Shown: positions 7,101 through 24,312 of the stretch, piece after piece | Position numbering within the stretch: position 1 is the first letter of the stretch | Layout of the letters: every line of letters starts with the position of its first letter | Virus record (IMG/VR): IMGVR_UViG_3300021138_000166 | Location: 1 to 24,312 of that record | Length of the DNA: 24,312 nt | Reading direction: 5' to 3' (one strand) | From: a virus | Notes under the pieces: generated by a model | The model's database searches: none | What the model saw: the letters and a program-made list of their open reading frames with translations, nothing else | What the model was told of the DNA's origin: nothing | Made by a program: the position numbers and the translations under genes

Positions 7101-10100
7101 TTTATTGGATTTTAACAACTCCAACTACATCTTCGTTTACTATTGGCACAACTTCAAATGCTACAATTCCTGTTGCAATAAGTTCAAGCGGGTCAGGTTC
7201 AATGACTGTGAACTACTATTTTAACTTAGCTAAGTGTATAAGAGACACAACAAACTATATCAATGCATTGGTTTATGACTTAACATACACTGGTAACTAC
7301 AAGTCACTGAGAGCCGCACAGCTTTATAATAACGCTGTTAGCGGAAGTACAACACAAAACATGTTCTTGGTACGTAATGGATCTGGTATCAGAAATATTA
7401 CAATGTCGGGTTTATATGGTGGGTTAACAACAGCAAATAGCTACGGAACAAAACGTCCAACAGCAGGATCCTACGCAAGTTTAGATCCAGGTTTTGGACC
7501 AAACGACAGCAACGTATGGATTAACACAAGAAGTTGTTATACACAAAACTGTACAATGTTTGGATACGCTTGCGTTGGTGCAAAGATTGATGCTGCACTC
7601 CATAACGGCGGTAATAAGTCAATGGTTGCAAACGATTATACTACTGTTATCGGCGATGGTATCGGTGTATGGTGTACTGGATCCGGTTCGTTAACTGAAT
7701 TGGTTTCAGTGTTCAACTACTATGGTTATGCTGGTTACCTTGCAGAACTAGGTGGACGTATTCGTGCTACGAACGGTAACAGCTCATATGGTACATATGG
7801 TGTTATTGCTGAAGGAACTGACACATACGAAACACCTATCAGTGGAACTATTAACAACCGTGCATTTAGCGCATATATTTCAAATACAGTTACAGATGCT
7901 GTTAATCAAATTTTACGTCTTGAATATCAAAATGCTGGAACAAACTATACTAATACTGTAACAGGTATTAACGGTAGCGGTTACAACGCATTTACTACAG
8001 CTGACGAATTTAGAGATTCAGCTGTATTTGAATCAAGATTAATTGACTTAAACGATGGTAACGGTGTAGGCGGAACTAGTTATGTTTCTAATGCAAACAC
8101 TAGTCAAGGCGGTGCAATAGGTTATATTACATTGGCGGCAACTGATACATTATTGAGCGCAGCGTATGTTGGTATGAGAATACAACTTACAGCTGGTTCG
8201 GGTGTAGGTCAGTATGCTAACGTTCTATCATATAATAACGGATCTAAGAATGCATTAGTATACAAAGATAGTTTTGCTACATTAACTGTTACAGGATCTA
8301 CCACAACTGTACTACAAGTTGCAAGTACATCTACGTTGTATGTTGGAATGCCAATATACCTAAGTGCTACTACAGCTGGTATATTTACAGCTAATACAGT
8401 TTACTACATTGCAACTATTCCAAGTACAACAACATTTACACTAGCAGCTACAGCTATTACTACTCCAATTACTGGACTAACAGCAACTAGCGGACAAACT
8501 ATTAGTTTATATGCTGCAGGCTGGGATCATGTTGTTCCAGGATGGTATACAGCAACTAATGCTTTAGATTTAACAACAACTTATATTATTGAACCTCGCA
8601 TAAGTTATACAAGTCCAGGTTATCTACAAACAGCAAGAACTATTGGTTCAACTTCAGCAACTTGGAAAGCCGCAACTTGGGCAGCTGGTTATTATGTAGC
8701 TGTTGCTAGCGGTAGTACAACTACAGCATTTAGTTCAAATGGTACAACATGGACAACTGGCGGAGCACTACCAAGTAGCCAATCTTGGACTGACGTTGTT
8801 TACGGCGGTGGACAAGGTGCTACTGCTACAGCAATATTAGGCGGTCAAGGTGGTACTGGAGCAACATTTAGTGCTACTATTGGTACTGGAACAAGTGCTA
8901 CACAGATTGTTTCTATATCAGTTCTAACAGGCGGTTATGGTTACACAACTCCACCAACTATTGTTATTACAGGCGGCGGCGGTACTGGCGCAACAGCAAC
9001 TTGTACGGTACTAAACGGTGCTGTTCAAACTGTTACTGTTACAGTTAACGGTTCAGGATATACATCACAGCCAACAATTACAGCGGTAACTACAGAAGTA
9101 AGTAGCATTACAGTAAACAGCTGGGGACAAAATTATTTCAGCACACCAACTGTTACAATTTCTCAACCACAGGCACTAACACCAAGTGCTTGGGCAGCAA
9201 CTACATCTGTATCTCTAAATGCATACCTACAGACCACAGCTGGAAGAATTTATCAAGTTACCGGTGCAGGTACAACTGGATCAACAGCTCCAACATTTGA
9301 TTTTATGAGTGCTACTCAAACTCAAACTAACGGATCTGCAACATTAACTTATATTGCTACACAAGCTCAAGCAACAGCATTGTTGACTAACAACGGTGTA
9401 AGCGGTTACAATTTAACTAACAACGGTTATGGTTATACTAGTGTACCATCTATCACAATAGTTGATTCAGGTGCAAGATTTGTTACAATTTCAGGTGCAA
9501 GTAATAACTCAGCATATCAAGTTGCTTCAAGTTTAGGATCTGCTTGGGTAGGCGGTAGTAGTACAGGAAAAACTAACTTAGCAAGTCTTGCATACGGTAA
9601 CGGTGTTTATGTAGCTGTTGGCGGTGCAAGTGCAACAGCAAGTGCTGTATCTAGCACAGACGGTGCTACATGGGTCGATCGTTCAAGCGCAATTACAGCA
9701 CTATCTGCTGGTTCATATAGTGCAGTAACTTATGGAAACGGATACTTTGTTGCAATCAATACTGGCGGTAATATTACTAGCGTGTCTGCTAACGGTGTTA
9801 CTTGGACAGCAGGTGGAACACTTCCATCGAGCACTACATGGTCAAGTATAGCTTATGGTAATGGACGTTTTGTTGCTATTGCTTCAGGCGGAACTAGTGT
9901 AGCTTATAGTATTGATAAAGGTGTAACATGGAAGGCAGCTCCAGCAGGCTTGCCAAGTAGCCAAACATGGACAAAGATTGTCTACGGTGAAGGTCTATTC
10001 TTTGCTATTGCTTCGGGAACTCAATCTTGTGCAACTAGCCCAGACGGTATAAACTGGACAGCACAATCGTTATCAAGCAGTTCAAACTGGACAGCACTAG

Positions 10101-11853: not shown

Positions 11854-13287
11854 ATGGCACGTTATAATACAGTAGTTACACAAAATACAATTAGTTCGAC
11901 ACCGTCGGGTGGTTTGGCATCTCCTAATTCTGGATTATTTACAGAATTCACAGGTACATCATACAACGTTACTGTACCAGATCCTACTTTGTATGCAGGT
12001 GCTACACAAACTTTTTATAATGCAGCCAGTGGAACTATTACTCTACAAACAGGAACAAGTGCAACATTTAATGGACCCGGCGCTTCTGGAACAAGTAGTT
12101 TTTCATTGGCAGCAGGTAGTACAGCAACATTGACTTCTGACGGTACTAACTACATATTAGTATCACAAAACGGTGGTGCTGTAGCTACTAGTTCATTAAC
12201 TGTTTCAGGTAACTTAACAGCTAACGGATCAAATGCTACAATTAGTTTTGCACCAACAGGTACAGGAACAATTACAATTAACCCAGCAACAGCTGGTACA
12301 GTATCAAACGTAGCAGTAAGTGCTACTACATTAAGTGCATCAAGTACAGTTGGCCTAAGCGGAACAAACGCTGTAGTTACAATTAGCCCAACTGGCGCAT
12401 CTGGAAGAGTTGTAATTTCGAGTCCAACCGCAAACAGCACAGCTGGTGCAATGGATAACATTAACATTGGTGCAACTACTCGAGGCACTGGTGCATTTAC
12501 TACACTGGCAGCTAACGGTGCTGTTACATTAACTGGCGGCGGATCGGCCAGTGCATATAACACTGCTGGCGCAGCATTGTTAGTAACAGGCGGTGTTGGT
12601 ATCAGTGGAGCAACATACACAAACAGTACGTTAACTACTAACGGACAATTAACAGTTTCAAGCGGTGGTGCAAATATTACTGGCGGCGCAACTGTTGCTA
12701 GCGGATTAACTGTTACCAGTGGTGGATTCAGTATTACAGGTACAGCAACTTTTGAATATGGTAACTTTGTTAAAGCACGTTATGCAGCAGGCAGCGATAA
12801 CTATGCATCTTACTGGGCATGGTACGGATTGCAACTTGGTAACAACGGTGATAATTTTTTTGTTGCCGGGTCTACTGCAACTGGCGGACAGTTCAAATTC
12901 TATGTTAACAACACCACAGCACCTACAAGTAGTAGTAACTGGGCACCAAACGGAACATTAGCATTAACCATTGGATCAAATGCTAACTGTACTTTTGCTG
13001 GTACTATTACAGAAAACTCAAGTATTGTTTACAAGGAAAATGTAAACCCAATTATGGGCGCATTAGATGCAATTACAAGTTTAGTTGGTGTAACTTATGA
13101 TCGTAAGAGCGGTACTAACAAAAACGAAGCAGGTTTAATTGCTGAAGAAGTTTACAAAGTATTACCAAACTTAGTCGAAATGACAGAAGACGGTAAGCCT
13201 CACGGCATTATGTATACTAAACTTACAGCATATTTGATTGAAGCTGTTAAATCTTTAAAAGCAGAAATTGATAGTTTAAAGAAATAA
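11854..13287 (+). CDS. Tail fibre-like protein with C-terminal S74-type intramolecular chaperone domain (477 aa)
   Basis: The start follows AAGAGAGATAAACT. Residues 1-370 are low-complexity beta repeats typical of fibres, including GATTRGTGAFTTLAANG (about 205-225) and short units such as LTVSSGGANITGGATVASG. Residues 387-477 match the S74 endosialidase-type chaperone layout: SSIVYKEN, then a YDRKSG...AGLIAEEV segment, LP.LVE, the GIMYTKLTAYLIEAVKSLK helix, and a terminal coiled-coil-like tail. In S74 domains a Ser/Lys pair drives autocleavage after trimer folding. Here Ser389 and Lys394 have the expected five-residue spacing, though the usual Asp and Arg of SDxRxK are replaced. The product is probably a trimeric receptor-binding fibre. 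It is the last gene before the terminator. Confidence 0.85.
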   Translation: MARYNTVVTQNTISSTPSGGLASPNSGLFTEFTGTSYNVTVPDPTLYAGATQTFYNAASGTITLQTGTSATFNGPGASGTSSFSLAAGSTATLTSDGTNYILVSQNGGAVATSSLTVSGNLTANGSNATISFAPTGTGTITINPATAGTVSNVAVSATTLSASSTVGLSGTNAVVTISPTGASGRVVISSPTANSTAGAMDNINIGATTRGTGAFTTLAANGAVTLTGGGSASAYNTAGAALLVTGGVGISGATYTNSTLTTNGQLTVSSGGANITGGATVASGLTVTSGGFSITGTATFEYGNFVKARYAAGSDNYASYWAWYGLQLGNNGDNFFVAGSTATGGQFKFYVNNTTAPTSSSNWAPNGTLALTIGSNANCTFAGTITENSSIVYKENVNPIMGALDAITSLVGVTYDRKSGTNKNEAGLIAEEVYKVLPNLVEMTEDGKPHGIMYTKLTAYLIEAVKSLKAEIDSLKK

Positions 13288-13345: not shown

Positions 13346-13564
13346 TTACCACTTGTTGATAGGACAATGCTGTCCGGGTAATCTAGTTTTTGCTGGCATA
13401 AAACAATGGCATATACCGCATATCTTAGTGGTGTTGTTAAAATTCTCACACTGTTTACAAATGTCTAATTTAACCTTAGCTTGAGCTTTGTTTTCAGCTA
13501 AGGATTGTTCGAGAGAATCCTTAGCTTCCAATACTGTGTCTCTAATCTGGTTAAGAAAACTCAT
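13346..13564 (-). CDS. Small Cys-rich zinc-ribbon-like phage protein (72 aa)
   Basis: The N-terminal 30 residues form a probable amphipathic helix (LEAKDSLEQSLAENKAQAK). Residues 36-67 carry six cysteines: C36-x2-C39, C49-x2-C52-x-C54 and C67 in a final CPINKW. This CxxC...CxxCxC...CP..KW layout matches small conserved phage proteins (DUF6171-like, from memory) that probably bind one zinc. Function is unknown. Its ATG overlaps the stop of the upstream 133-residue gene by one base (TAATG), so translation is likely coupled. It is the last gene of the minus-strand block and ends just before the shared terminator. Confidence 0.75.
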   Translation of the reverse strand: MSFLNQIRDTVLEAKDSLEQSLAENKAQAKVKLDICKQCENFNNTTKICGICHCFMPAKTRLPGQHCPINKW

Positions 13565-13965
13565 TATTCGCTAACAGTTGTAACAGCACCCTTAGAGTCA
13601 ATGTTTTGACCATCTGGGCAGCAATCTGCCAACCAATGTTGTTGCATAGTAGCAAGTTTTGTTGTCTTAGGAGCTCGCATATCATCAAGTTCTGCACGAA
13701 GAGCGTTCTCTGTTTCAGTTCTACCGATTTTATCCCAAACAAATCCTAAAATATCTGTGTGGTCTAACTCCAAGTAGTCTGTAAAATTTTCTGGATCTGG
13801 AGCATCTAATGCTGTGCCAGCACGAAGATAGTGAACGCTACCGTCTGTAGTGTCACGTACTTCTAGTTCCCAGTAAACTTCACCAACTACGTCTTGTAGT
13901 GGTAGTTCTGGATGTTGTTGATACCCGTCTACACGAGCGATTTGCCATCTAAAATTGTATGCCAT
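13564..13965 (-). CDS. Conserved phage protein, DUF7936-like (133 aa)
   Basis: The product starts MAYNFRWQIARVDGYQ and continues with a DVVGEVYWELEVRDT strand pair, then APDPENFTDYLELDHTDILG and an amphipathic segment ending ENALRAELDDM. This order (W.I, VV..V.W.., APDPENF, helix) matches a small family frequent in T4-like marine phages, which I recall as DUF7936; the assignment is from memory. The C-terminal 40 residues (QHWLADCCPDGQNIDSKGAV) are longer than I recall for the family. The role is unknown; a place beside fibre genes hints at a virion or assembly role. The ribosome-binding site AAGGAAAAATAAA precedes the start. Confidence 0.7.
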   Translation of the reverse strand: MAYNFRWQIARVDGYQQHPELPLQDVVGEVYWELEVRDTTDGSVHYLRAGTALDAPDPENFTDYLELDHTDILGFVWDKIGRTETENALRAELDDMRAPKTTKLATMQQHWLADCCPDGQNIDSKGAVTTVSE

Positions 13966-13986: not shown

Positions 13987-14529
13987 TTACCAGCGTGTTG
14001 CTGTATTTGTATCTGCGGTTTCTGTAGCCCATGCATAACTGTTTCTAAAGCCGCCCATATTCCACATACGTACCCAAAGATTACCAGTACAACAGCATGA
14101 TATCTTACCAATGGCAAAACACATTCTGGTATAACCACCATATGTAGCACTTGAACGATATACATATGGGTTACTGTTTGAGTTACCAGTGTTTACACGA
14201 ATTTGACTACCGTAAAAGGTATTATCATATCCGTTATTATTTACGACCGCTTTAAAATCGTGCCATCTTTCACCGCTATAACTATGATATCCTACTACTT
14301 CTAGCAAATAAGGATTCCAGCCAATTCCTGCGGAGTTGTCAGCAGGGTAAGGTGTGCGTACATGTAAGTATGCTCTGCCGTTACCAATACAGTCACTAGT
14401 ACCGTCACTGCTTGGACATACGCAATGGCTCAATTGATACCATTCAGTTGCATCGCTTTGTCCGTCTATAATTGCGGTTGAGTTTGTTAAATCACCGTTA
14501 ATTGATGTATCTAAGTTAAATGTTGCCAT
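13987..14529 (-). CDS. Cys-rich CCC-motif protein, paralogue 3 of a tandem family (180 aa)
   Basis: This is one of three adjacent minus-strand paralogues (13987-14529, 14550-15074, 15087-15620). The shared core is HxRTPxP....GWNPxxxEVxG, HSYSGE/HSTYGGE, DFKAV.N..GY, GSQ, VY.S..YGGYxRxCF, CCCTGN, WVR. Here the centre reads LHVRTPYPAD and RMCFAIGKISCCCTGNLWVR, with an extra N-terminal cluster CVCPSSDGTSDC. The first 30 residues are a fibre-like strand region (NGDLTNSTAIIDG). No signal peptide or membrane segment is present. Five conserved Cys may bind metal or form disulfides. Position and the N-terminal beta region suggest a virion adhesin tip; the function is not recognised. Confidence 0.75.
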   Translation of the reverse strand: MATFNLDTSINGDLTNSTAIIDGQSDATEWYQLSHCVCPSSDGTSDCIGNGRAYLHVRTPYPADNSAGIGWNPYLLEVVGYHSYSGERWHDFKAVVNNNGYDNTFYGSQIRVNTGNSNSNPYVYRSSATYGGYTRMCFAIGKISCCCTGNLWVRMWNMGGFRNSYAWATETADTNTATRW

Positions 14530-14549
14530 GCTTTTACTTATTCCTTAGT

Positions 14550-15074
14550 TTAAAATTGCTTTACAGGACTGGATTGACTATCGCTATAACTAGCTGTGGC
14601 ATATGGATAGCTGTTCCAATAACCATTCCCATTCATCCATCGGACCCAGATGTTACCAGTACAGCAACATGTAATCATATTAGTTGAAAAACAAACTCTA
14701 TAGTCACCACCATATGTAGTGTTTGATAGATAAACATACGGAGCACTATTAGTACCATTGTTTGAAAATACTTGACTTCCGTACCATCCGTTTGGAGCAC
14801 CTTGATATCCGTTGATATTGATAACAGCTTTAAAATCTTCTACGGTTTCACCGCTATAACTATGATAGCCATGTACTTCTAAAATGAATGGATTCCAGCC
14901 TAGTGCTCCTCCGGGTATAGGAGTTCTAACGTGTAGTCTATTGTTAGCAACTGTATATTGTGTTGGGCAATGACTTAATTGAACCCATGGACTAATATTT
15001 GAATTGCCTGTTAATACAGTATTGCCTGTAATAGTTAGTAATCCATTAACTGTTGTCGCTTGTAAATTTGCCAT
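14550..15074 (-). CDS. Cys-rich CCC-motif protein, paralogue 2 (174 aa)
   Basis: The middle copy of the tandem family. It opens with a short beta repeat (NGLLTITGNTVLTGNSNI) of the type seen at fibre N-termini. The core follows: WVQLSHC, LHVRTPIPGG, LGWNPFILEVHGYHSYSGE, DFKAVININGY, GSQVFSNNG, YGGDYRVCFS, CCCTGNIWVRW and a Tyr/Ser-rich tail. It has fewer N-terminal cysteines than its neighbours (only the SHC). It lies 20 nt upstream of paralogue 3, with the ribosome-binding site AAAAGGATAAAGA. Retention of the same core in three diverged copies suggests selection for different binding specificities, which is inference. Confidence 0.75.
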   Translation of the reverse strand: MANLQATTVNGLLTITGNTVLTGNSNISPWVQLSHCPTQYTVANNRLHVRTPIPGGALGWNPFILEVHGYHSYSGETVEDFKAVININGYQGAPNGWYGSQVFSNNGTNSAPYVYLSNTTYGGDYRVCFSTNMITCCCTGNIWVRWMNGNGYWNSYPYATASYSDSQSSPVKQF

Positions 15075-15086
15075 TCTTTATCCTTT

Positions 15087-15620
15087 TTACCAGTATGCTG
15101 CGTTAGAACTGTAACCAATGACACCCCATGGATAGTCTGCTCTATATCCGCTGTTATTCCACCAGCGAACCCAAATCCAGCCGTTACAGCAACATCCTGC
15201 TTTTGGTACAGCGATACATACTCGTTTGTAACTGCCGTACGCACTTGTTGATTGATACACAATAGGTGTAGTATTTCCTTGGTTAGCTCTGATTTGACTA
15301 CCAAACCAAGTGTTATCCGAATACCCACTATTGTTTGTAATAGCTCTAAAGTCGTTTGTATATTCTCCACCGTATGTACTGTGTCCTACTACTTCTACAA
15401 TATTAGGATTCCATCCAATACCACTAGCAGCGTTCGTTGCTGGTAACGGAGTTCTGATGTGAAACCAACCGCAGGAGTATGTTGGATTACAAATGCTAGT
15501 ACTAGCTGCATCGGCACAATATTGCATTTTATACCAAGGGCTTTGATTTCCGCCTGCACGGTACACACCACTAGAAGCAGTTATAATACCCGATGACGTA
15601 GTTCCGACTAATGAAGCCAT
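15087..15620 (-). CDS. Cys-rich CCC-motif protein, paralogue 1 (177 aa)
   Basis: The first copy in the transcription direction. Its start follows AAAGGAAAAACAC and it lies 12 nt before paralogue 2. Core: WYKMQYC, WFHIRTPLPATN, GIGWNPNIVEVVGHSTYGGE, DFRAITNNSGY, WFGSQIRANQG, YGSYKRVCIAVPKAGCCCNG, WIWVRWWNNSGYR. It has an extra Cys pair in the variable loop (SICNPTYSCG). The N-terminal 30 residues (GTTSSGIITASSGVYRAGG) again look like a fibre-type strand region. The late promoter candidates at 15650-15657 and 15689-15696 lie directly upstream, so expression with virion proteins is likely. Confidence 0.75.
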   Translation of the reverse strand: MASLVGTTSSGIITASSGVYRAGGNQSPWYKMQYCADAASTSICNPTYSCGWFHIRTPLPATNAASGIGWNPNIVEVVGHSTYGGEYTNDFRAITNNSGYSDNTWFGSQIRANQGNTTPIVYQSTSAYGSYKRVCIAVPKAGCCCNGWIWVRWWNNSGYRADYPWGVIGYSSNAAYW

Positions 15621-15753: not shown

Positions 15754-16308
15754 ATGAATAGCGTATTACAACCATCAATTCTTAAAAACTTTTTATCCGA
15801 AGAGGAAATAACAGAGTTAAATCAGTGGACCAAGGACAATTATCCTTCAGATTTCTTCGAAGATGCAGCTATGGGTCTTCCAAAGACTCAGTATACTACT
15901 CGATATTGGGGAAAATGGGGACAAGATCAATCCTTGTTAGTTTTTCCAGATGTAGTTTATACAGTTAAAGAAAGACTCATCAAACATTTTGACATGGAAG
16001 ATGTTAAATATCCTCCATGGAAGGATGGTATTAGTAATTACATATACTTTGACGGTGCTTCAATACGACCGCATGTAGATGGTATCTTTCAACGAGGATA
16101 TTACACTTTGCATTGTAATACAATTACACAGCCTGCTGATGTCGGCGGCATAACTAAAATAAAGAGCAATCGGTGGGATGAATGGAAAACAGAACCAAAA
16201 GATATGTTATGTTATCCTGTTACCGAAATTACTCACTACATAGATAAGTGTCAAGGACCTACACCTAGGATTATGTGGTCGTGGGCATTTTGTCTAAAAA
16301 AATTATAA
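15754..16308 (+). CDS. 2OG-Fe(II) oxygenase-like protein (184 aa), divergent member
   Basis: The expected metal and 2-oxoglutarate residues of the double-stranded beta-helix dioxygenases can be placed as His107-x-Asp109 (RPHVDG), His161 (THYID) and Arg172, eleven residues after the distal His. The first third (LKNFLSEEEITELNQW) looks like the helical N-terminus of prolyl-hydroxylase-like enzymes. The core between the ligands is short and the usual LNDD..GG strand is replaced by HCNTITQPADVGGITKIK, so this is a remote member. The substrate is unknown. It is read away from the Cys-rich operon and has no clear Shine-Dalgarno sequence. It lies 11 nt before the next plus-strand gene. Confidence 0.6.
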   Translation: MNSVLQPSILKNFLSEEEITELNQWTKDNYPSDFFEDAAMGLPKTQYTTRYWGKWGQDQSLLVFPDVVYTVKERLIKHFDMEDVKYPPWKDGISNYIYFDGASIRPHVDGIFQRGYYTLHCNTITQPADVGGITKIKSNRWDEWKTEPKDMLCYPVTEITHYIDKCQGPTPRIMWSWAFCLKKL

Positions 16309-16319
16309 AGAGAAAAACT

Positions 16320-16730
16320 ATGGAAACAAAATCTGTTATAGCATTACAAGATGGACGAACCATCCGAGCAGTTATGTGCGAAACTGGCGACTATGTCGAT
16401 CTAGCACCAAGATTACACAAACTTTGGAAATTGGATCAGATTAAGAAAATAATTGAAGAAGGAAATCAAGAGTCTATCGAAGATGATAGTAATACTCCAA
16501 GTGATCCTAGCGTTCCAGCAGTCACATTTTATAATTTTTCCGACTTTATGCGATATTATGAAAAAATGTTTTGTGAAGATTACTATATAATGGATACTAA
16601 CGAAGGAACATGGTATTATGCAGGCCTTGGAGACAGATCGACAGTATTACTAGAACTTAAAATTCAGCCGTTGTATAGAAAACGGACAGATCCAGAATCT
16701 GGCGGATTCTGTCACATTCATCCTCACTAA
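16320..16730 (+). CDS. Hypothetical acidic protein (136 aa)
   Basis: The start at 16320 is preferred over an in-frame ATG at 16275, because the latter overlaps the upstream gene by 34 nt and 16320 follows AAAGAGAAAAACT. Visible parts: a beta region (VIALQDGRTIRAVM), an acidic linker (IEEGNQESIEDDSNTPSDPS, about residues 46-65) and a Tyr-rich C-terminal part (FYNFSDFMRYYEKMFCEDYY) ending HIHPH. The C-terminal His cluster and Cys could bind metal, but no known family is recognised. Its stop codon overlaps the stop of the convergent oxygenase gene by two bases (16728-16729). Confidence 0.65.
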   Translation: METKSVIALQDGRTIRAVMCETGDYVDLAPRLHKLWKLDQIKKIIEEGNQESIEDDSNTPSDPSVPAVTFYNFSDFMRYYEKMFCEDYYIMDTNEGTWYYAGLGDRSTVLLELKIQPLYRKRTDPESGGFCHIHPH

Positions 16731-17302
16731 CTAAAATTAAAGTTCACTACTACACGTCTTGGCACAGTTGTAGGAGTTGAACTTGAATGATAAGTCAATC
16801 CGTCAAACAATACCATCCTATTATATTTAGGTTCAATTTCATGGGCAACTTTTAAATTAGGTTTAACAACTTTTTCAAAGTATTGCCCACCATTTAATTT
16901 GCTATTGATGTTGTATTTGTTTTCGTATAATACAGTAGCACCATCTGCATCATTCAAATAGATAAGACCGGTAGTGTGTGGTGTATCTATATCGATGTGA
17001 GGATCATTTATATGTCTTTCACTTGACACAGTTAGCAACCCTAGCCTAATTCTGTAAATTTCTTTTACAGGTACTTCTGCTTTTTCCAACGCTATCAAGA
17101 TAGCTGTGTGTAATGCATCGGCAGCAGCAGTTTTTGGACCGGTATGGTCGAGAGCAATATGCCCCCAACTATATCCGTATAAGTTTTCTGTAGCACCTTT
17201 GTAAGTTGTAGTATTAAAAGTCCAAGGCGTTCCTTCGTGTAGAATCATGTCTCGGATCTTCTTTATTAAAACTTTTGGTAAAATATCGTCATATACTTGC
17301 AT
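16727..17302 (-). CDS. 2OG-Fe(II) oxygenase (191 aa), last of a five-gene run
   Basis: Starts MQVYDDILP and ends RRVVVNFNFS, the same frame ends as the oxygenase at 18471-19076 (MIEVYDDLVP...RIVINFNI), so the two are probably paralogues. Ligands: His102-x-Asp104 (DPHIDID), followed by TGLIYLNDADGATVLYENKY (the strand and turn after the first ligands), distal His172 (FDGLTYHSS) and Arg182 or Arg183 for the 2-oxoglutarate carboxylate. Length and order fit phage prolyl-4-hydroxylase-like dioxygenases, which use O2, Fe(II) and 2-oxoglutarate to hydroxylate a substrate; the substrate is unknown. The ribosome-binding site is AAGGAATTGTT. The gene is separated by 9 nt from the upstream oxygenase gene. 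Confidence 0.85.
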   Translation of the reverse strand: MQVYDDILPKVLIKKIRDMILHEGTPWTFNTTTYKGATENLYGYSWGHIALDHTGPKTAAADALHTAILIALEKAEVPVKEIYRIRLGLLTVSSERHINDPHIDIDTPHTTGLIYLNDADGATVLYENKYNINSKLNGGQYFEKVVKPNLKVAHEIEPKYNRMVLFDGLTYHSSSTPTTVPRRVVVNFNFS

Positions 17303-17311
17303 AACAATTCC

Positions 17312-17905
17312 TTATAGAGTCAACTCGCCTAGATCTTCGCCCATAGTTCCAGATAACCATGTGTTAAAACTTAAACTAATACGAACATTATCGTGCATTA
17401 CTGGAATAATTCTGTGGACAAGACTAGATGGAAACAATAGTAGCTCGCCTTCTACAGCTGGAAACATTGCACCTTCTGCATTCCACGGTGTATCGTATTG
17501 ATTTAACCAAGCCAGTCGTTGATACTCTAGTGTTTTATGAAACATAATAGCATCATCGGCGTCTGTTTGCACATAAAATACTCCGCTAATAATGCTATTA
17601 GAATGATTGTGCATATTACACCATTCGCCTTTTTCTAAATAATTTGCCCAGCTGAGTGTGATATTCAATTTAAGATCATTTTTAGGAGCATAGGCTTTCT
17701 CCCAAAATTCAGTAGTGTAGTATTCGCAAAATGCTTTTATTTGTTTTAGTTCAGGAATATCCAGCATTTTAAGATTGTCACTGATTTTATTAACCATGTC
17801 CTTTTTAAAAGGCTGAGTGGTAATAGCTTGGTACTCGCTATCTGTTAGTTTTCTATTAAGACTTACTTGTGCAAGCGGTGTGGGGAAAAGACTGTGAATA
17901 TTCAT
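17312..17905 (-). CDS. 2OG-Fe(II) oxygenase of the PF13759/TIGR02466 type (197 aa)
   Basis: Opens with LFPTPLAQVSL, a typical start of this family. Central motif MHNHSNSIISGVFYVQTDAD contains His99-x-His101 followed by SGVFYV. The second half has LLLFPSSLVHRIIPV with distal His164, then Arg175 in NVRISLSFN. In this family an HxH pattern replaces the usual HxD; I take this from memory. The region EYQRLAWLNQYDTPWNAEGA is an insert between the strands. Probable soluble hydroxylase, substrate unknown. Its start overlaps the stop of the upstream paralogue by four bases (17902-17905), so the pair is translationally coupled. Confidence 0.85.
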   Translation of the reverse strand: MNIHSLFPTPLAQVSLNRKLTDSEYQAITTQPFKKDMVNKISDNLKMLDIPELKQIKAFCEYYTTEFWEKAYAPKNDLKLNITLSWANYLEKGEWCNMHNHSNSIISGVFYVQTDADDAIMFHKTLEYQRLAWLNQYDTPWNAEGAMFPAVEGELLLFPSSLVHRIIPVMHDNVRISLSFNTWLSGTMGEDLGELTL

Positions 17906-18501
17906 TTTTGACCTTTATTTTTAGTTGCTTTAATGTTGAATGATACGCTAATGCGATTGCCCGGCGTTGTTTGTGTTGATATACCATGTTCTAGCCAACC
18001 AGGAAATAGTATAAACATATTATCAGTTGGAGGAACTGACATGATTGGTTGAGTTGCAGCAAATAGTAATGATGACTGGCATTGTTTAGTGGGAGATGCA
18101 AAATACAACTGACCATCTGTTCCAGCTGTATCTACATAAAATACTCCTGACATATCGCTAGCACCATGTTCGTGTTTAGGAGCAAACTCTCCTTGATTAG
18201 TTAGTGTCATCCAGGATTCTGTAATCTTTAAACTGATGTTAACAGTATTCCAGCCAATCATTTTAAGATATTGCTCTGCTTGCGATAATACTTCTTTTTC
18301 AAAAGTATCTAATTGGAATTCGGCAATCATATTTCCAGAAAACTTAGTGTCGCTAATACGATGCTGATGAGGTTCTCTGCGTTGAAATTTATCATCGGCT
18401 ATTAGTTGTTCAAAGACTCGTTTAAAGTCTGATTGAATAACGTTGGCATTATTTGCCATTCCTTGATAAATTAAAACTGGATAGATTGGTACGACTTGCA
18501 T
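17902..18501 (-). CDS. 2OG-Fe(II) oxygenase of the PF13759/TIGR02466 type (199 aa)
   Basis: Paralogue of the following gene. It opens with VVPIYPVLIYQG. Motifs: KHEHGASDMSGVFYVDTAG with His110-x-His112, then FILFPGWLEHGIS with His172, and NRISVSFNIKA with Arg183. Residues 39-60 (QRREPHQHRISDTKF) are a His/Arg-rich variable segment. The C-terminus is basic (KATKNKGQK). The start is chosen for AAAGGATCGAT eight bases upstream; this gives a 31-nt overlap with the end of the upstream oxygenase gene. Substrate unknown. Confidence 0.85.
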   Translation of the reverse strand: MQVVPIYPVLIYQGMANNANVIQSDFKRVFEQLIADDKFQRREPHQHRISDTKFSGNMIAEFQLDTFEKEVLSQAEQYLKMIGWNTVNISLKITESWMTLTNQGEFAPKHEHGASDMSGVFYVDTAGTDGQLYFASPTKQCQSSLLFAATQPIMSVPPTDNMFILFPGWLEHGISTQTTPGNRISVSFNIKATKNKGQK

Positions 18502-19076
18502 ATCGATCCTTTAATGTTAAAATTTATCACTATTCGTTTATCAGCAAGAATAGGATGTCTTCCAGCATGAAAATATTTGCCGTCAAACACCAAAAATCTG
18601 CCACGTTTAGGCGTTACAGATTTAATAATGTTGCCTTCGTCATCAAATATAGTAGTATCACCGTCACTATCGTTAACATAGTAAATTAGTACAGTATGTT
18701 CTTCTGTACGATCTCTGTGCGGAGTACTATAGAAGTATTCTTTTGAAAAATTACATTGAGTTTGGTAGTTAGCTTTCATTCGACCAACTGCTGTTAGTTC
18801 TATTCCTGCTGTTTTACAAAATTGCTGAAACATTTCACTAACTAAAACAGCAACATCCGATGTGAGCTTTCCTTCCTTTAAGAAATTATGTCCAAACATA
18901 ATGTACTCACGGACTTTGGGATCGTCTCTCAACAGTACATTATCGTCCTCGCTATTACCTACAGACGGACGTGGACCTTCTGGAAATAAAAACCATGGCA
19001 GGTCCGGACCAGACAATATCTTTTCAAGCACAATTTGCTGATCTAATGGTACTAGATCATCATATACTTCAATCAT
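18471..19076 (-). CDS. 2OG-Fe(II) oxygenase, prolyl-hydroxylase-like (201 aa)
   Basis: Ligands are His120-x-Asp122 (TPHRDRTEEHTVLIYYVNDS), then DGDTTIFDDEG, distal His170 (FDGKYFHAG) and Arg181 (DKRIVINFNI). The start MIEVYDDLVPLDQQ is followed by an N-terminal helical segment and an acidic loop (GNSEDDNVLLRDDP). The VLIYYVND..GDT strand is a strong sign of the prolyl-4-hydroxylase-type fold. It shares its ends with the enzyme at 16727-17302. Start site support: AAGGACCATTGTTTAA. The start codon overlaps the upstream stop by four bases. Confidence 0.85.
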   Translation of the reverse strand: MIEVYDDLVPLDQQIVLEKILSGPDLPWFLFPEGPRPSVGNSEDDNVLLRDDPKVREYIMFGHNFLKEGKLTSDVAVLVSEMFQQFCKTAGIELTAVGRMKANYQTQCNFSKEYFYSTPHRDRTEEHTVLIYYVNDSDGDTTIFDDEGNIIKSVTPKRGRFLVFDGKYFHAGRHPILADKRIVINFNIKGSICKSYQSIQF

Positions 19077-19618
19077 TTAAACAATGGTCCTTGTAGAAAT
19101 AATGTTATAGTCCTTCTTGTTCCGCTAGTAACCGGTGTAACTCTGTGTGGAACCCAGCTAGGAAAAACAAAAAAGGATCCTGGTTTTCTAAATTCAACAA
19201 TTTGCTCAGAGCCCGCACTAAAAAATAGCTCTAAATCGCCACCTTCAAACGGCTCGGTGCTTACGTTAAGAAGAATTGTCAGTTTAATATCTTTAACTTC
19301 TCCACGAGAAGCATCGATATGCCAAGTATATTCTTCGTTTACATTATAAACATTATATAACAACACATCTAAATCTGTAAATTGAAATAGATCAAAACCA
19401 AATAAATGCTTATTAGCATCTAATGATAAATCTTTTAATTTTGACAATAGATCTTTTACTTTACCATATTCAACCATGCCTACTTTTGAAGTCTTTACAG
19501 AAGTTTGACTAGGCATGTCTTTCAAGGTAACATTAATATTTTGTTCCATTGCTTTGCATATAGCTACACATTCTTCTTGTGTATAGATATTTGAACGGTA
19601 TGCGTGATCTTGTAACAT
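19073..19618 (-). CDS. 2OG-Fe(II) oxygenase, PKHD/PiuC-like (181 aa)
   Basis: His100-x-Asp102 sits in YTWHIDASRG, followed by KLTILLNVSTEPFEGGDLEL and the late motif KPGSFFVFPSWVPHRVTPVT with distal His158, then GTRRTITLFLQGP with Arg168. The GGDLEL and FVFPS..PHRVTPV motifs are those of PKHD-type hydroxylases (PiuC/YbiX-like), which are known from iron-linked loci in bacteria. The family match is strong, the substrate is unknown. It starts at 19618, sharing one base with the stop of the upstream gene (TAATG), so it is probably translationally coupled. Confidence 0.9.
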   Translation of the reverse strand: MLQDHAYRSNIYTQEECVAICKAMEQNINVTLKDMPSQTSVKTSKVGMVEYGKVKDLLSKLKDLSLDANKHLFGFDLFQFTDLDVLLYNVYNVNEEYTWHIDASRGEVKDIKLTILLNVSTEPFEGGDLELFFSAGSEQIVEFRKPGSFFVFPSWVPHRVTPVTSGTRRTITLFLQGPLFK

Positions 19619-20397
19619 TATTTTTTAAATCCAAAAGGGCATTTGCTTTCTGCTTCTTTTTTCTTTAAAAGATTTCGTTTCTTGTTATGATTATTAAAGA
19701 AAAAAGCTCGGTTAGTTGTTTCGTAAACTCGACGCCATTGCTCATTATCAACAAGATGATTTCTAACAATGACTTCCCTGTCTGTAATGGGGATTAGTTG
19801 TACTAGAGGCTGTCCAGCCTCCATCTGAAGTAGTTTAGGTTCGCCGCTGGCATCTCGTTTACGTATTGAGAAATTAATAAACACGTTAGAATTATACTTA
19901 AATTCAATAATGCCAGGCAACAACACTAGCTCATCCGGGCACTTAAAATTATATGTTGGCTGCGTCCAGATCCAGTCAATATCTTCTGAGCATTTAAAAA
20001 CCCATGGCGAAAATATCTTAAAATGTGTATAATCGTTATCGGGCATAAAATCGGAGCCTAACTGTTTCTGTTCGTGTACTTGGCACTTTGTTATCTGATC
20101 GGCAAACTGCGTAGCCAATTGTACAGTTTTCTGAAATCCGTTGCTAATGGGCGCAAAACCAAATTGGGCATCTGACCAAAGCGGTATGATATAACCGGAT
20201 TTAAAATATCCCATAACACCTGAGCATGTTTTTATAGTAGGCGGTGGGATAATAGACCTAGGGTCTTCGAATGTGCTAGGAAGATTTTTAAACCAACTAG
20301 GAATATGCTTCTTTGTAGATTCGATTTTAAACATGTCGTAGACATGATTATGTGTTGTATAGCAATCTAAATATATTGGTTTCTTTTTAAAAAACAT
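19618..20397 (-). CDS. Conserved T4-like phage protein, function unknown (259 aa)
   Basis: The start MFFKKKPIYLDCYTTHNHVY is followed by PSWFKNLP, then a CSGVMGYFKSGYIIPLWSD segment, FKIFSPWVFKCSEDIDWIW (residues about 126-144), CPDELVLLPG and VFINFSIRKRD. The end is basic (NNHNKKRNLLKKKEAE, then CPFGFKK). I recall proteins of this layout in marine T4-like phages, perhaps DUF6065-like, but know no function. The PWV.....W.QP core suggests a beta-sandwich or cupin-like fold; this is inference. It is the gene before the oxygenase run, and its ribosome-binding site AGGACC may lie in a weak hairpin. Confidence 0.7.
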   Translation of the reverse strand: MFFKKKPIYLDCYTTHNHVYDMFKIESTKKHIPSWFKNLPSTFEDPRSIIPPPTIKTCSGVMGYFKSGYIIPLWSDAQFGFAPISNGFQKTVQLATQFADQITKCQVHEQKQLGSDFMPDNDYTHFKIFSPWVFKCSEDIDWIWTQPTYNFKCPDELVLLPGIIEFKYNSNVFINFSIRKRDASGEPKLLQMEAGQPLVQLIPITDREVIVRNHLVDNEQWRRVYETTNRAFFFNNHNKKRNLLKKKEAESKCPFGFKK

Positions 20398-20422: not shown

Positions 20423-20437
20423 AGTATATAGGAATTT

Positions 20438-20887
20438 TTATATTAAATCAACTAAATCGAACACAGTTTGAAGTTTTGTGCGTATTGTTTTGCTCGAAAA
20501 GCTATTACGCAGACCTTGGTGTAAGGGTTTAGGCGCACGGTCGATAGTTGCCCATGCCCAAGCAATGTGTTCATCACTTAGTTCAGGAACAAATTCTTTT
20601 TCTATAACACAGAGATAGGTATGGAAATTAAACACACGATCATTTGATACAAATGTTTCTAAAGGAATCGTCTTTAAGATTTTTGGTACAGAACCGATTT
20701 CTTCGGTAATTTCTCGTTGTAAGCCCTGCCATGGAGTTTCGCCAGTGATATTAGTACCACCAACTAAACCCCAAGTTCCTTCGTGTTTGCCGTGTGCTTT
20801 TTGTAACAGTAAGAATCTTCGTGTAGATTTGGCGTAGAACAATGCTCCGCTACAAACTATCGATTCTTTTACAGTACTAGACTCCAT
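20438..20887 (-). CDS. Nudix hydrolase (149 aa)
   Basis: The Nudix box is present at residues 44-66 as G44-x5-E50-x7-R58-E59-x2-E62-E63-x-G65, followed by Ser where a hydrophobic residue is usual. The preceding strand reads GALFYAKSTRRFLLLQKAHG and the loop GTWGLVGG, both typical of the fold. A Nudix enzyme hydrolyses a nucleoside diphosphate linked to another moiety; the exact substrate cannot be told from the sequence. T4-like phages often carry such enzymes. The gene overlaps the end of the gp15 gene by 19 nt and lies 40 nt before the next gene in the same direction. Confidence 0.9.
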   Translation of the reverse strand: MESSTVKESIVCSGALFYAKSTRRFLLLQKAHGKHEGTWGLVGGTNITGETPWQGLQREITEEIGSVPKILKTIPLETFVSNDRVFNFHTYLCVIEKEFVPELSDEHIAWAWATIDRAPKPLHQGLRNSFSSKTIRTKLQTVFDLVDLI

Positions 20888-22305
20888 TGACCTGATGTAT
20901 ATACACCCTCAAAACTCTTTGCCCAGGAAACTCCGTTCCACAGGTATTGTACTCCAGTGTATATATTCGTTTGCCACACTAAGGTGTCTTTGTCTTGGTT
21001 TGCGTGGAAAACTACAGTCCATGTTTCTCCAGTCCACTCGATGATGTCGTTTACTTCTGCTACGAAATCATGTCCATAGATGTCCTGCCATGCACTAGCA
21101 CCTTTGCCTGGTGCATTGTGTGTACTACCTATTTCGTCAATTATCAAGTATCGTGTGCCCACAGCAATAGGCTGATCTGTATCTTGTTTTTGAGGACGTT
21201 TTGGATTAAATGATTGTGGATTTATAATAGCATCAAATGTGCCAGGACTATTAGGTCTATAGCAATGTGATAAATCGTAACCTAATTCGTGATCTAGTAA
21301 ACCCGCACTATCAATTCCTGTGTTAGATGTAAGTGTATCAGGATTCCATTGAACATGCATGATTGTATAGTTCAACGGATCGATAGCCACAGTACCTACA
21401 ATTTGACTACCATTTGCTTGTGTTAAAAATAGTCTACTTGAACCTGCAACATATTTTCCAGGGTATTGTTGCATAATGGCCATCCAGTCTACTGGTGTGC
21501 CTTGACGTTCTGGAATATCTAATGTAGGCTCCAATGGAACTGTACTTTCGTGTGGCTCTAATAAAATAGCTTGATTGTTGTATACTTCTAATTTATAACC
21601 AGTAATACTGATAGTAAGCGAATCAAATTGATTTTGAAGTGTTGTAGTCGATCCTAATGGGTCGCTTGATGAACCTAACCCTTCAATATAAGTTCCGCTA
21701 TTAACAGCAGAACCATGCATGTTATTAATAATTTTTGTAATAACACCCAAATGTTTGACCTTAACTGGCGGATTAATCCATATAGGAGTATCTAGTGTTA
21801 TGGTAGCAATGTCAATTGGTGTGTCATTGCCTACAGGAACTGTTCGACTATCCCAGTTAATATCATTTAAGTTTAATACAGTTAAACTGGTCCAGTCAAT
21901 ATAATTGTCTGTAGTTTGTAGTTCTAGACTAGGATTGAACAAGACTAAAATCTGTTCAAGTATTTGTAATTTTTGATCTGTATTGGCACTCCAAATATCG
22001 CACTTCATAGTAAGTTTGAATGGTGTTGGCATCAAACGTTCAATGGTATAATTTTTACCTTGTTCAGGCAAGTATTTGTTAGTGCGAGGATCTATAGCAC
22101 GTTCGCGAATATTAACTGTATCTACAAAAGTTTGATCAGCTAGTCTATCTCGATCCAATGCTAGAGCTGTAACATAGATACTGATACGTGGAACAGAGTT
22201 TACAATATTTTCACTGTTTTGTCTAATAATGCTAGCTACTTGACGTTCAGCATCTCCATACATTACAGGTATACGATGTAAACTACCGTCACCGTATTTT
22301 ACCAC
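20869..22305 (-). CDS. 15: Tail sheath stabilizer / completion protein, T4 gp15-like, with long C-terminal extension (478 aa from GTG)
   Basis: Residues 89-185 carry the family core: IERLMPTPFKLTMKCDIWSA, QKLQILEQILVLFNPSLELQ, TTDNYIDWTSLTVLNL, RTVPVGNDTPIDIATITLD and PIWINPPVKVKHLG. T4 gp15 caps the sheath and tube at the tail end and joins the tail to the neck. The N-terminal RIPVMYGDAERQVASIIRQN is also typical. The rest, residues 200-478, is the extension of cyanophage-type versions, ending YLWNGVSWAKSFEGVY. The 22305 start is a GTG; conserved in-frame sequence continues upstream (FFYDAQIRRYI...RAFSNF), so this start is probably too short. The gene follows the gp14 gene and overlaps the Nudix gene. 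Confidence 0.85.
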   Translation of the reverse strand: MVKYGDGSLHRIPVMYGDAERQVASIIRQNSENIVNSVPRISIYVTALALDRDRLADQTFVDTVNIRERAIDPRTNKYLPEQGKNYTIERLMPTPFKLTMKCDIWSANTDQKLQILEQILVLFNPSLELQTTDNYIDWTSLTVLNLNDINWDSRTVPVGNDTPIDIATITLDTPIWINPPVKVKHLGVITKIINNMHGSAVNSGTYIEGLGSSSDPLGSTTTLQNQFDSLTISITGYKLEVYNNQAILLEPHESTVPLEPTLDIPERQGTPVDWMAIMQQYPGKYVAGSSRLFLTQANGSQIVGTVAIDPLNYTIMHVQWNPDTLTSNTGIDSAGLLDHELGYDLSHCYRPNSPGTFDAIINPQSFNPKRPQKQDTDQPIAVGTRYLIIDEIGSTHNAPGKGASAWQDIYGHDFVAEVNDIIEWTGETWTVVFHANQDKDTLVWQTNIYTGVQYLWNGVSWAKSFEGVYTSGQWSLVL

Positions 22306-22389
22306 AAAATTACTAAACGCACGAATAGTCTGCGTAATATATCGTCTGATTTGCGCATCGTAGAAGAATTGTATAATAGTACAACGGCG
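22306..22389 (-). other. In-frame upstream extension of gp15 without standard start codon
   Basis: Directly before the GTG at 22305 the same frame encodes QFFYDAQIRRYITQTIRAFS and then NF, which matches the conserved gp15 N-terminus. The frame is open back to a TAA at 22390-22392. Within it there is no ATG, GTG or TTG before the conserved part, only ATT (22375-22377) and ATA (22372-22374). Confidence 0.65.
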
Positions 22390-22400
22390 TTAAACCGAAG

Positions 22401-22407
22401 CCTCCTT
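22401..22407 (-). promoter_or_regulatory. Strong Shine-Dalgarno AAGGAGG without a matching start codon
   Basis: AAGGAGG on the minus strand lies between the gp14 stop and the conserved gp15 N-terminus. The codon ten bases downstream is ACG (22388-22390), in a different frame from gp15. The nearest in-frame gp15 candidates lie more than 20 bases away. Confidence 0.5.
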
Positions 22408-22424
22408 GTTTATATAGATGTGCA

Positions 22425-23879
22425 TTATAAATCCGCCTTTGGTCTAAGCACTTTGCTGATGCTTTGTCTTTGTTCTTCTCTATCGTTGTATAAGGTAATA
22501 GTCCATTGTCCAGCGTAAGGAATTGTCTGTTGTTCACCGCCAATTACAGGTAAATTAATTCTTAACAACAATGGACTTGATGGAGTTTTTCTATAAGTTG
22601 TAATTAAGTTTGGATAATCACTGACAGCATAATCAATTAGTATGTTGTCTAGTTTTAAAACTACATAAATTCCCACTGGAGCAGATGGTAAAGTTGTACT
22701 GATAAGACTAACTCCTGCATCAATTTGATCTTGTGTAAATGTTGCAAATGTTGTGGCAATTGCATCTGAATAAGTCCAAAGATTATTGTTGATAAATCCA
22801 GTTTTAAGTGTGCTACGAGTATCAGTTTGTGTCATAGTCATGCGTACACTATCTTCTACAGCTACCCATCCGCCTGTGCCAGAATCAAATCTAAACAATC
22901 TGTTAGGTAAGAAATCTACACGCAAGAAAAAGTCATTGTTAGCTGGCGCCGCTGGAAAATTAACACCAAATCCAAACGCATATCCGTTAACTGGAAAACC
23001 ATCTCCAACCAAGTATCCTGTATAACCTGTACGCAATGGTACACCGTACGTACCACTGGCAAGTTGTCCTGCATTGCTAGCATTGACAGTTTCATCATCT
23101 GCGGCCTGTAGTGTAGTTTGCCCGCCAGTAGCACTGGCCGCAAGAGTATAAAATTGACGAGTTTCATAACCACTCTTAGGAGCATCTGCTTCAGCTTGGG
23201 CAACAACTTGATTGTTAATTTCAATTTCTTTATTATATGTACTGAGCAAATCTTTAAGAGTAGTTCCTGCAACTGGATCTCCATTGGCATCCAAGGCTTG
23301 CTGATTAAAGATTTGTGCAAATTGCTGACTATCTGTAATTCGTTTAAGTTTTAATCTGTACAAATGTGGATACCAAGTTACGCTAAATCCTTCGCTAGCA
23401 CGGCCTACATCTTCGATTACATAATAACGTGGTAAACTAAAGTCAAAATCGTTAAGAGCAAAATCGTCACGCAAATGCGGAAGTTCTATAACGTCCCCAC
23501 TGATAGGTTTGCGCCCAATATACTTGATAAAATCGTTAATGTGTATGGTCATGTACAGGGTATCGTTGTCAATAAACAGGCCAAATTGGCTCAAATTAAA
23601 ATCAATATTTTGTACATTATAAAGCCCGCGAATTCTGTAGATTTCCGAGTCGTATTTTCTGTCACGATTTTCTAAAAATAGCAAATCTTGTATGTTTGTT
23701 ACTGCTGTATTAGCATAGTTAGGCTGATCAGCCGTAGCATTAGCTGGGTCTGTACCAGCACCTAAGTATTTGTGCAGATAGACATCAGTTCCGCCAGCTT
23801 GAAACATTTCGCTGGCTTGGCGGTCAATGAACTTGTAGTCATTGCCTTTTTCTGGTTTATAAAGTGATAAGCGTGGCAT
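22425..23879 (-). CDS. 14: Neck protein, T4 gp14-like (484 aa)
   Basis: The start MPRLSLYKPEKGNDYKFIDR, the GGTDVYLHKYLG loop and the internal block LPRYYVIEDVGRASEGFSVT, WYPHLYRLKLKRI fit gp14 of T4-like marine phages. An insert of about residues 190-340 is rich in Ala, Gly and Thr (TLAASATGGQTTLQAADDE, FPVNGYAFGFGVNFP). The C-terminus is GQWTITLYNDREEQRQSISK followed by VLRPKADL. T4 gp14 is a neck protein acting with gp13 where head and tail join. The stop overlaps the ATG at 22423-22425 by one base. The start codon has no clear Shine-Dalgarno sequence. Confidence 0.8.
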   Translation of the reverse strand: MPRLSLYKPEKGNDYKFIDRQASEMFQAGGTDVYLHKYLGAGTDPANATADQPNYANTAVTNIQDLLFLENRDRKYDSEIYRIRGLYNVQNIDFNLSQFGLFIDNDTLYMTIHINDFIKYIGRKPISGDVIELPHLRDDFALNDFDFSLPRYYVIEDVGRASEGFSVTWYPHLYRLKLKRITDSQQFAQIFNQQALDANGDPVAGTTLKDLLSTYNKEIEINNQVVAQAEADAPKSGYETRQFYTLAASATGGQTTLQAADDETVNASNAGQLASGTYGVPLRTGYTGYLVGDGFPVNGYAFGFGVNFPAAPANNDFFLRVDFLPNRLFRFDSGTGGWVAVEDSVRMTMTQTDTRSTLKTGFINNNLWTYSDAIATTFATFTQDQIDAGVSLISTTLPSAPVGIYVVLKLDNILIDYAVSDYPNLITTYRKTPSSPLLLRINLPVIGGEQQTIPYAGQWTITLYNDREEQRQSISKVLRPKADL

Positions 23880-23886
23880 AGTAACA

Positions 23887-23894
23887 TATTTATC
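23887..23894 (-). promoter_or_regulatory. Possible late promoter (GATAAATA), minus strand, before gp14
   Basis: The octamer lies 8-15 nt before the gp14 start in the 44-nt divergent gap. The expected transcription start would be almost at the start codon, giving a leaderless or nearly leaderless mRNA. This fits the lack of a Shine-Dalgarno sequence, but chance occurrence is possible. Confidence 0.35.
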
Positions 23895-23923
23895 GATAGC
23901 TAAATATGTATGAGGAACTAATT

Positions 23924-24312
23924 ATGGACGAACTCGCACCTACAACGCTATCCGACCCAACAGCTGAACGAAACAAGGTATTTGACTATGTCAAACTAAT
24001 GCTAGGCGACGGCATGGTTGAGGTGGAATTAGACCCAGCACACTATGAAGCAGCACTGGATAGAGCACTAAATCGCTATAGACAAAAAAGCCCAAATGCT
24101 GTGGAAGAAAGCTATTTGTTTATAGAACTAATTCAGGATACAAATGAATATAAATTGCCCGACGAAGTTATTGAAGTTCGTCAGGTATTTCGTCGTGCTA
24201 TCGGTTCAAGAAGTGGTATGGGTGCAGGTGGAACATTGTTCGAACCATTCAACTTGGCGTACACAAACACTTACTTGATGAGTGGTAGCATGATGGGCGG
24301 ACTAGCAACTTA
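23924..24312 (+). CDS. 13: Neck protein, T4 gp13-like, 5' part (cut by window end)
   Basis: The visible 129 residues open MDELAPTTLSDPTAERNKVF and continue with LGDGMVEVELDPAHYEAALD, then RALNRYRQKSPNAVEESYLF. T4 gp13 has the matching [21 protein letters not shown] near its N-terminus. The later RQVFRRAIGSRSG, GGTLFEPFNLAYTNTYLM and GGLAT fit marine T4-like homologues. gp13 works with gp14 at the head-tail junction. The start follows TGAGGAACTAATT. The gene is read away from gp14, 44 nt apart, which differs from the co-directional T4 order. Confidence 0.85.
   Translation, partial: MDELAPTTLSDPTAERNKVFDYVKLMLGDGMVEVELDPAHYEAALDRALNRYRQKSPNAVEESYLFIELIQDTNEYKLPDEVIEVRQVFRRAIGSRSGMGAGGTLFEPFNLAYTNTYLMSGSMMGGLAT

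Follow-up and report, generated by a model that had tools for sequence, protein, structure and literature searches.

A battery of 2-oxoglutarate-dependent oxygenase genes forms one allele of a hypervariable enzyme island that separates the neck genes of a large phage from its tail fibres

Few accessory genes are as common in marine phages as those for 2-oxoglutarate (2OG)-Fe(II) oxygenases, with 24 reported in S-SCSM1 (PMC9602691) and ten in S-CREM1 (PMC9964418). The T4-like cyanophages syn9 (gp41–gp54), S-RIM44, P-RSM6 and S-CREM1 carry them as batteries, that is, runs of PF13640 and PF13759 genes accompanied by tryptophan halogenases; in the first three of these, tail-fibre and fibre-assembly genes are followed by two halogenases and a contiguous run of 2OG-type genes. 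In S-SCSM1 four 2OG genes stand side by side, with virion genes to one side and fibre genes to the other, although its 2OG genes are spread over the genome and were read by the authors as metabolic genes (PMC9602691). In S-SRM01 a halogenase is flanked by a tail-fibre gene and an adhesin-tip gene, and the pelagiphage HTVC008M has four annotated 2OG genes immediately ahead of gp13-14-15. The jumbo cyanophage S-SSM6a combines a halogenase, 2OG oxygenases, a carbamoyltransferase and a methylase in a cluster that comes after its giant fibre gene. What phage 2OG oxygenases act on is not reported in the literature that we found. Here we analyse the linear virus record IMGVR_UViG_3300021138_000166 (24,312 nucleotides; the whole stretch is called the window below), in which five 2OG oxygenase genes and a probable sixth occupy positions 15754 to 19618. 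The preliminary description of the window held that only single enzymes were known in cyanophages and that a coupled battery beside adhesin genes was unusual; the batteries listed above, often with flavin halogenases, contradict both statements. What is new is the hypervariable slot between a NUDIX hydrolase gene and the tail fibres, in which alleles are swapped. A literature search, incomplete in its coverage, returned no work that links such enzymes to fibres or describes swapping.

The swap is seen in one pair of near-identical phages. The window and its sister contig L005 (L numbers denote related loci) are 98.7% identical in DNA over positions 20436–24312 (3.9 kb), and no identity is detectable from there into the slot. 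The break in homology coincides with the stop codon of the NUDIX gene, with the reading frames intact on both sides. In L005 the slot, which extends from the NUDIX gene to the S74 fibres, contains about ten 2OG-profile genes, three full-length PF04820 halogenases (E < 1e-89) and a methyltransferase. The L005-type junction is shared by L230 and L232, and two further contigs of the same population, L006 and L007, end near it. The syntenic fibres of the window and L005 have diverged too (protein identity only 57–65% and 38%), so that the two contigs differ both in the island and on its fibre side. The window oxygenases are thus one allele of a hypervariable island of tailoring enzymes, bordered by the NUDIX/gp15 neck genes on one side and the tail fibres on the other, and the island has been replaced wholesale.

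The content of the slot was surveyed in two sets of relatives, each drawn from a search that covered 80 loci among the matches listed. We recognised the IMG sample numbers of these relatives and take them to be of freshwater origin. The first search used the structural protein, and its 80 relatives gave 27 distinct loci showing at least 3 kb past the NUDIX gene. Seven of the 27 have 2OG genes in the slot, five of them with a full-length halogenase (2OG and halogenase, full-length halogenase only, 2OG only, neither: 5/0/2/20; p 2.6e-4). The second set, found through the NUDIX gene, comprises 43 distinct loci; 2OG genes (one to nine each) are present in 27, of which 20 also have a halogenase, 16 have neither, and a full-length halogenase without a 2OG gene occurs in none of the 43 (Fisher p 9e-7). 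Six contigs are common to both sets, and their removal leaves 18/0/7/12 (p about 3e-5, by hand arithmetic). The distinct full-length halogenases keep the catalytic lysine, the EP motif and the first tryptophan in 34/34, and the second tryptophan (WxWxIP) in 23/34. DUF6065-like proteins (phrog_7084 family) are found in 14 of the 27 oxygenase-bearing slots vs one of the 16 others, and a single slot can hold as many as three or four of them; a member of this local family matches DUF6065 at E 6e-5, which is under the cut-off. Carbamoyltransferases, methyltransferases and DUF6445 proteins also recur. Where a locus has no island, the NUDIX gene is usually followed at a short distance by long fibre-like genes. 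The alleles of the island are therefore drawn from a common pool of 2OG oxygenases, flavin-dependent halogenases, DUF6065-like proteins, methyltransferases and carbamoyltransferases.

Three further features were observed among the relatives. A shorter halogenase-like protein of about 400 residues directly follows the NUDIX gene, with no 2OG gene in the slot, in L018, L022, L240, L279 and L294. In L233, L235, L263, L277 and L035 the NUDIX gene is separated from the oxygenases by GroEL and/or GroES-like genes. A second, separate site in L101, L103, L089, L095 and L097 holds one strongly conserved single 2OG gene (tight clade, support 100) with conserved neighbours.

The slot differs in several respects from its closest counterparts. 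The T4-like cyanophage batteries belong to Kyanoviridae, whereas the window has a jumbo-myophage backbone, a NUDIX/gp15 border and no halogenase in its own allele. The S-SSM6a cluster resembles the slot in its enzymes and its place beside a giant fibre gene, but the slot alleles have no constant core and that of the window consists of oxygenases and a DUF6065-like protein only; carbamoyltransferase and methylase genes, looked for as marks of an S-SSM6a-type cluster, are absent from the window's slot. The hyperplastic g15–g18 region of T4-like phages (PMC2984593) likewise has variable insertions among conserved structural genes, but carbon-metabolism and electron-transport genes are reported there, whereas oxygenases and halogenases predominate in the slot across its alleles.

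The coordinates and strands of the six open reading frames (ORFs), as given in the preliminary description, were all confirmed (Table 1). Its assignment to the 2OG-Fe(II) family stands for the five minus-strand genes, ox1 to ox5, which pass curated Pfam cut-offs (three PF13640, two PF13759) and overlap or almost abut one another from 19618 down to 16727. The first histidine, distal histidine and arginine columns are kept in all five proteins, with HxD in three and HxH in the two PF13759 members, so that the iron ligands and the 2OG arginine are conserved. By itself the residue pattern is poor evidence, and the family assignment rests on the profile matches: of 461 unrelated ORFs of comparable length, 117 (25%) contain a loose H-x-[DE]...H...R pattern, which was set aside as unspecific. 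The subfamilies were rightly called as a PF13759 pair, a prolyl-hydroxylase-like PF13640 pair and a divergent member. The remaining gene, ox5, had been named PiuC-like; it is PKHD-like and related to PiuC, but falls far under the PiuC/PKHD equivalog cut-offs (44.3 bits vs 143) and, at 181 residues vs about 225, gives a match confined to the central part.

The sixth gene, oxA, on the opposite strand, is probably a 2OG oxygenase as well; it is graded thus because it has no Pfam or NCBIfam match, yet resembles ORF241 of S-SCSM1, an annotated 2OG oxygenase and the sole relative of oxA found among phages. ORF241 belongs to the run of four 2OG genes in S-SCSM1 described above. Both proteins have the HxD motif, distal histidine and arginine (H107, D109, H161 and R172). 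Profile comparison of oxA with the other five proteins is weakly supportive (E 0.005, probability 7%), and a profile search against solved structures gave no match. Scans of viral contigs for close relatives yielded none for oxA, none for the DUF6065-like protein and one weak relative for ox4. An ORF at 16275–16730, likewise on the plus strand, overlaps oxA at its 3′ end and has no relatives in the libraries searched.

Table 1. Features of the window in order of position
Feature	Position	Strand	Place in the locus	Evidence
Giant fibre	1184–11479		tail-fibre/adhesin side of slot	fibre PHROG match
S74 fibre	11854–13287		tail-fibre/adhesin side of slot	fibre PHROG match
Three CCC paralogues	13987–15620		tail-fibre/adhesin side of slot	
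oxA, divergent probable 2OG-Fe(II) oxygenase	15754–16308	plus		36% identity to S-SCSM1 ORF241
ox1, PF13640	16727–17302	minus		E 6e-6, 27.6 bits vs cut-off 27; HID...H...R; phrog_274 1e-36
ox2, PF13759/TIGR02466, HxH type	17312–17905	minus		PF13759 1e-18; TIGR02466 above cut-off; HNH...H...R
ox3, PF13759, HxH type	17902–18501	minus		PF13759 2e-16; HEH...H...R; solved relative 3bvc E 3e-4
ox4, PF13640	18471–19076	minus		E 1e-6, 29.9 bits vs cut-off 27; HRD...H...R; top PHROG phrog_274
ox5, PKHD-like PF13640	19073–19618	minus		E 5e-13; solved PKHD hydroxylase 3dkq E 2e-5
DUF6065-like / phrog_7084 protein	19618–20397	minus	heads oxygenase run	phrog_7084 2e-23
NUDIX hydrolase	20438–20887	minus	conserved slot border	PF00293 2.5e-15
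gp15-like sheath stabiliser	20869–22305	minus		PHROG 1e-60; sister-contig protein 99.6% identical
Virion structural protein	22425–23879	minus		PHROG 3e-89; sister-contig protein 100% identical

Judged by their sequence relationships, the window oxygenases are old paralogues. Relatives outside the window score above any gene within it, and in a tree of 184 proteins the window enzymes are scattered among those of marine and freshwater phages. In this tree ox1 falls among battery genes from syn9, S-CREM1 and P-RSM6, and ox4 is placed in a clade with battery genes of syn9 and S-CREM1; the T4-like cyanophage batteries thus contain the nearest kin of these two enzymes. ox5 is 44% identical to an enzyme from the equivalent slot of L080. 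The cyanophage framing of the preliminary description is apt for the oxygenases but not for the backbone, which by its structural protein is of the jumbo-myophage type: the closest proteins are those of the jumbo myophages Atu_ph07 (Agrobacterium), Phosso (Sinorhizobium), PA5oct and RaK2.

We tentatively favour, as possible though short of probable, a role for the island enzymes in tailoring the virion adhesins or a surface-facing product. Acting singly or in series, the oxygenases would hydroxylate such a product or, on the neighbouring fibres and adhesins, residues exposed at the surface; other alleles would in addition halogenate, methylate or carbamoylate these targets. Exchange of the island along with the fibres would then give the phage a chemically different receptor-binding surface. 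The oxygenases may be expressed late together with the virion genes, which fits their arrangement because they overlap each other and follow virion genes of the same orientation. The role in tailoring is favoured because of this arrangement, the position of the island, its joint divergence with the fibres in the sister pair, and the free recombination of its enzymes without a pathway core.

The link to fibre genes was examined in nine Kyanoviridae genomes that are complete or almost so. ORFs of at least 1000 residues served as fibre proxies, because the phrog_9851 and PF13884 profiles miss most cyanophage fibres, and rotation of the gene order provided the null. This replaced a first distance test in which positions inside giant ORFs had counted as near; gp13 (phrog_211) was also tried as an anchor for the cyanophage batteries and rejected, since it is about 55 kb from the syn9 battery. 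Twelve of the 14 halogenases have a giant ORF no more than eight genes away (expected 4.6, p 2e-4), and 45 of the 63 members of 2OG/halogenase runs have one within 12 genes (expected 28, p 0.014). A halogenase is present within 6 kb of 30 of the 120 2OG genes (expected 9.4). The preliminary description had set random association against its proposal. For individual 2OG genes this is what was found, as they are not nearer to giant fibres than chance, whereas batteries and halogenases are; in the window's own phage group a fixed site adjoining the fibres houses the battery. These data lend moderate support to fibres as targets, because the p values are not corrected for the several distances tried, the phages are related, with their kinship ignored in the rotation test, and some halogenases are far from fibres.

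Those limits are themselves among the points that weigh against tailoring of adhesins. Individual 2OG genes occur within 12 genes of a giant ORF in 60 of 120 cases (expected 50, p 0.10; p 0.10–0.62 overall), and the halogenases of S-MbCM6, S-B64, Sf-CH3 and S-SCSM2R are located far from annotated fibres. No halogenase was found among the window's slot genes. AlphaFold models of oxA (single sequence, predicted local distance difference test score (pLDDT) 36) and of the DUF6065-like protein (four sequences, pLDDT 31) gave no usable fold. The carbamoyltransferases and methyltransferases of the sister slots also fit a metabolite or capsule pathway.

Such a pathway is the main rival, doubtful on balance but a real contender: the enzymes would make a halogenated or hydroxylated small molecule derived from an amino acid or sugar, or decorate the capsule or lipopolysaccharide. 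Iyer et al. (2021) predicted a halogenated amino-acid or sugar product for the S-SSM6a cluster, where carbamoyltransferases, an amino-acid methylase, a halogenase and 2OG/cupin enzymes occur together (PMC7824862), likewise behind a giant fibre gene, and the sister slots show comparable mixtures of halogenases, carbamoyltransferases and methyltransferases with 2OG genes. A pathway is harder to reconcile with alleles that have no enzyme common to all and in which combinations and copy numbers vary freely, nor were carrier-protein or non-ribosomal-peptide-synthetase-type assembly genes seen among the scanned slot proteins; the lack of a halogenase in the window island also argues against it.

An effect on host metabolism, in which 2-oxoglutarate is consumed or turned to succinate and nitrogen signalling shifts during infection (Sullivan et al. 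2010), seems very unlikely. It was proposed for cyanophages, which have NtcA sites and numerous 2OG genes (PMC3037559), but the window backbone is akin to jumbo phages of proteobacteria, and diverged paralogues, swapping at one slot and tight coupling to halogenases would be left unexplained.

Repair or modification of phage or host DNA or RNA by AlkB-like or denV-like enzymes is highly improbable. DNA repair was suggested for the syn9 2OG genes, and the top PHROG of ox1 and ox4, phrog_274, is labelled DNA endonuclease V. However, members of phrog_274, including cyanophage "DNA endonuclease V" proteins, score with 2OG-oxygenase profiles; neither these proteins nor ox1 and ox4 match the pyrimidine-dimer glycosylase family, and T4 denV is without a homologue in cyanophages according to a review (PMC2984593). 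For these reasons the label is probably a mistake, passed on to RefSeq phage records. No AlkB family match was found in the window. Besides ox1 and ox4, the label applies to records of syn9 (L125), P-SSM2 (L123), S-H38 (L121) and many RefSeq cyanophages. Separately, syn9 gp52 (L125:13921–14532), labelled "minor coat protein", matches DUF6445 (2e-13) and, weakly, PF13640 and may be an oxygenase-type enzyme.

That the junction between battery and virion genes is an assembly chimera is barely credible: the window is a metagenomic fragment and no other contig was seen to have exactly its junction, but homology stops at a stop codon with intact frames on both sides, and many related contigs show an analogous order of NUDIX gene and oxygenases.

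Some further observations concern the neighbouring DNA and one other phage. The three CCC paralogues stand in tandem beside the fibre genes and share an invariant CCC motif. A search with the CCC proteins for co-occurrence with oxygenases found one relative locus, which ends at a contig edge; the relative, in L228, is 55% identical and adjoins a homologue of 13564–13965 and S74-like fibre genes. The window contains a single copy of the late promoter TATAAATA, below chance expectation, and scans of the window for promoters and terminators gave no excess over shuffled sequences. In the lake actinophage DSL-LC01 (Actinomycetia phage; L128), a halogenase is located near annotated collagen-like genes and adjoins a glycosyltransferase gene.

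Taken in full, the proposal that large freshwater phages have a dedicated island that diversifies fibre chemistry by hydroxylation, halogenation and the like, and that its joint exchange with the fibres changes host recognition among near-identical phages, appears rather unlikely. A single swappable slot that holds the oxygenases, with halogenases, beside adhesin genes in one phage group makes a specific target for these enzymes testable. If virion adhesins are chemically tailored, the host range of such phages would not be predictable from sequence alone.

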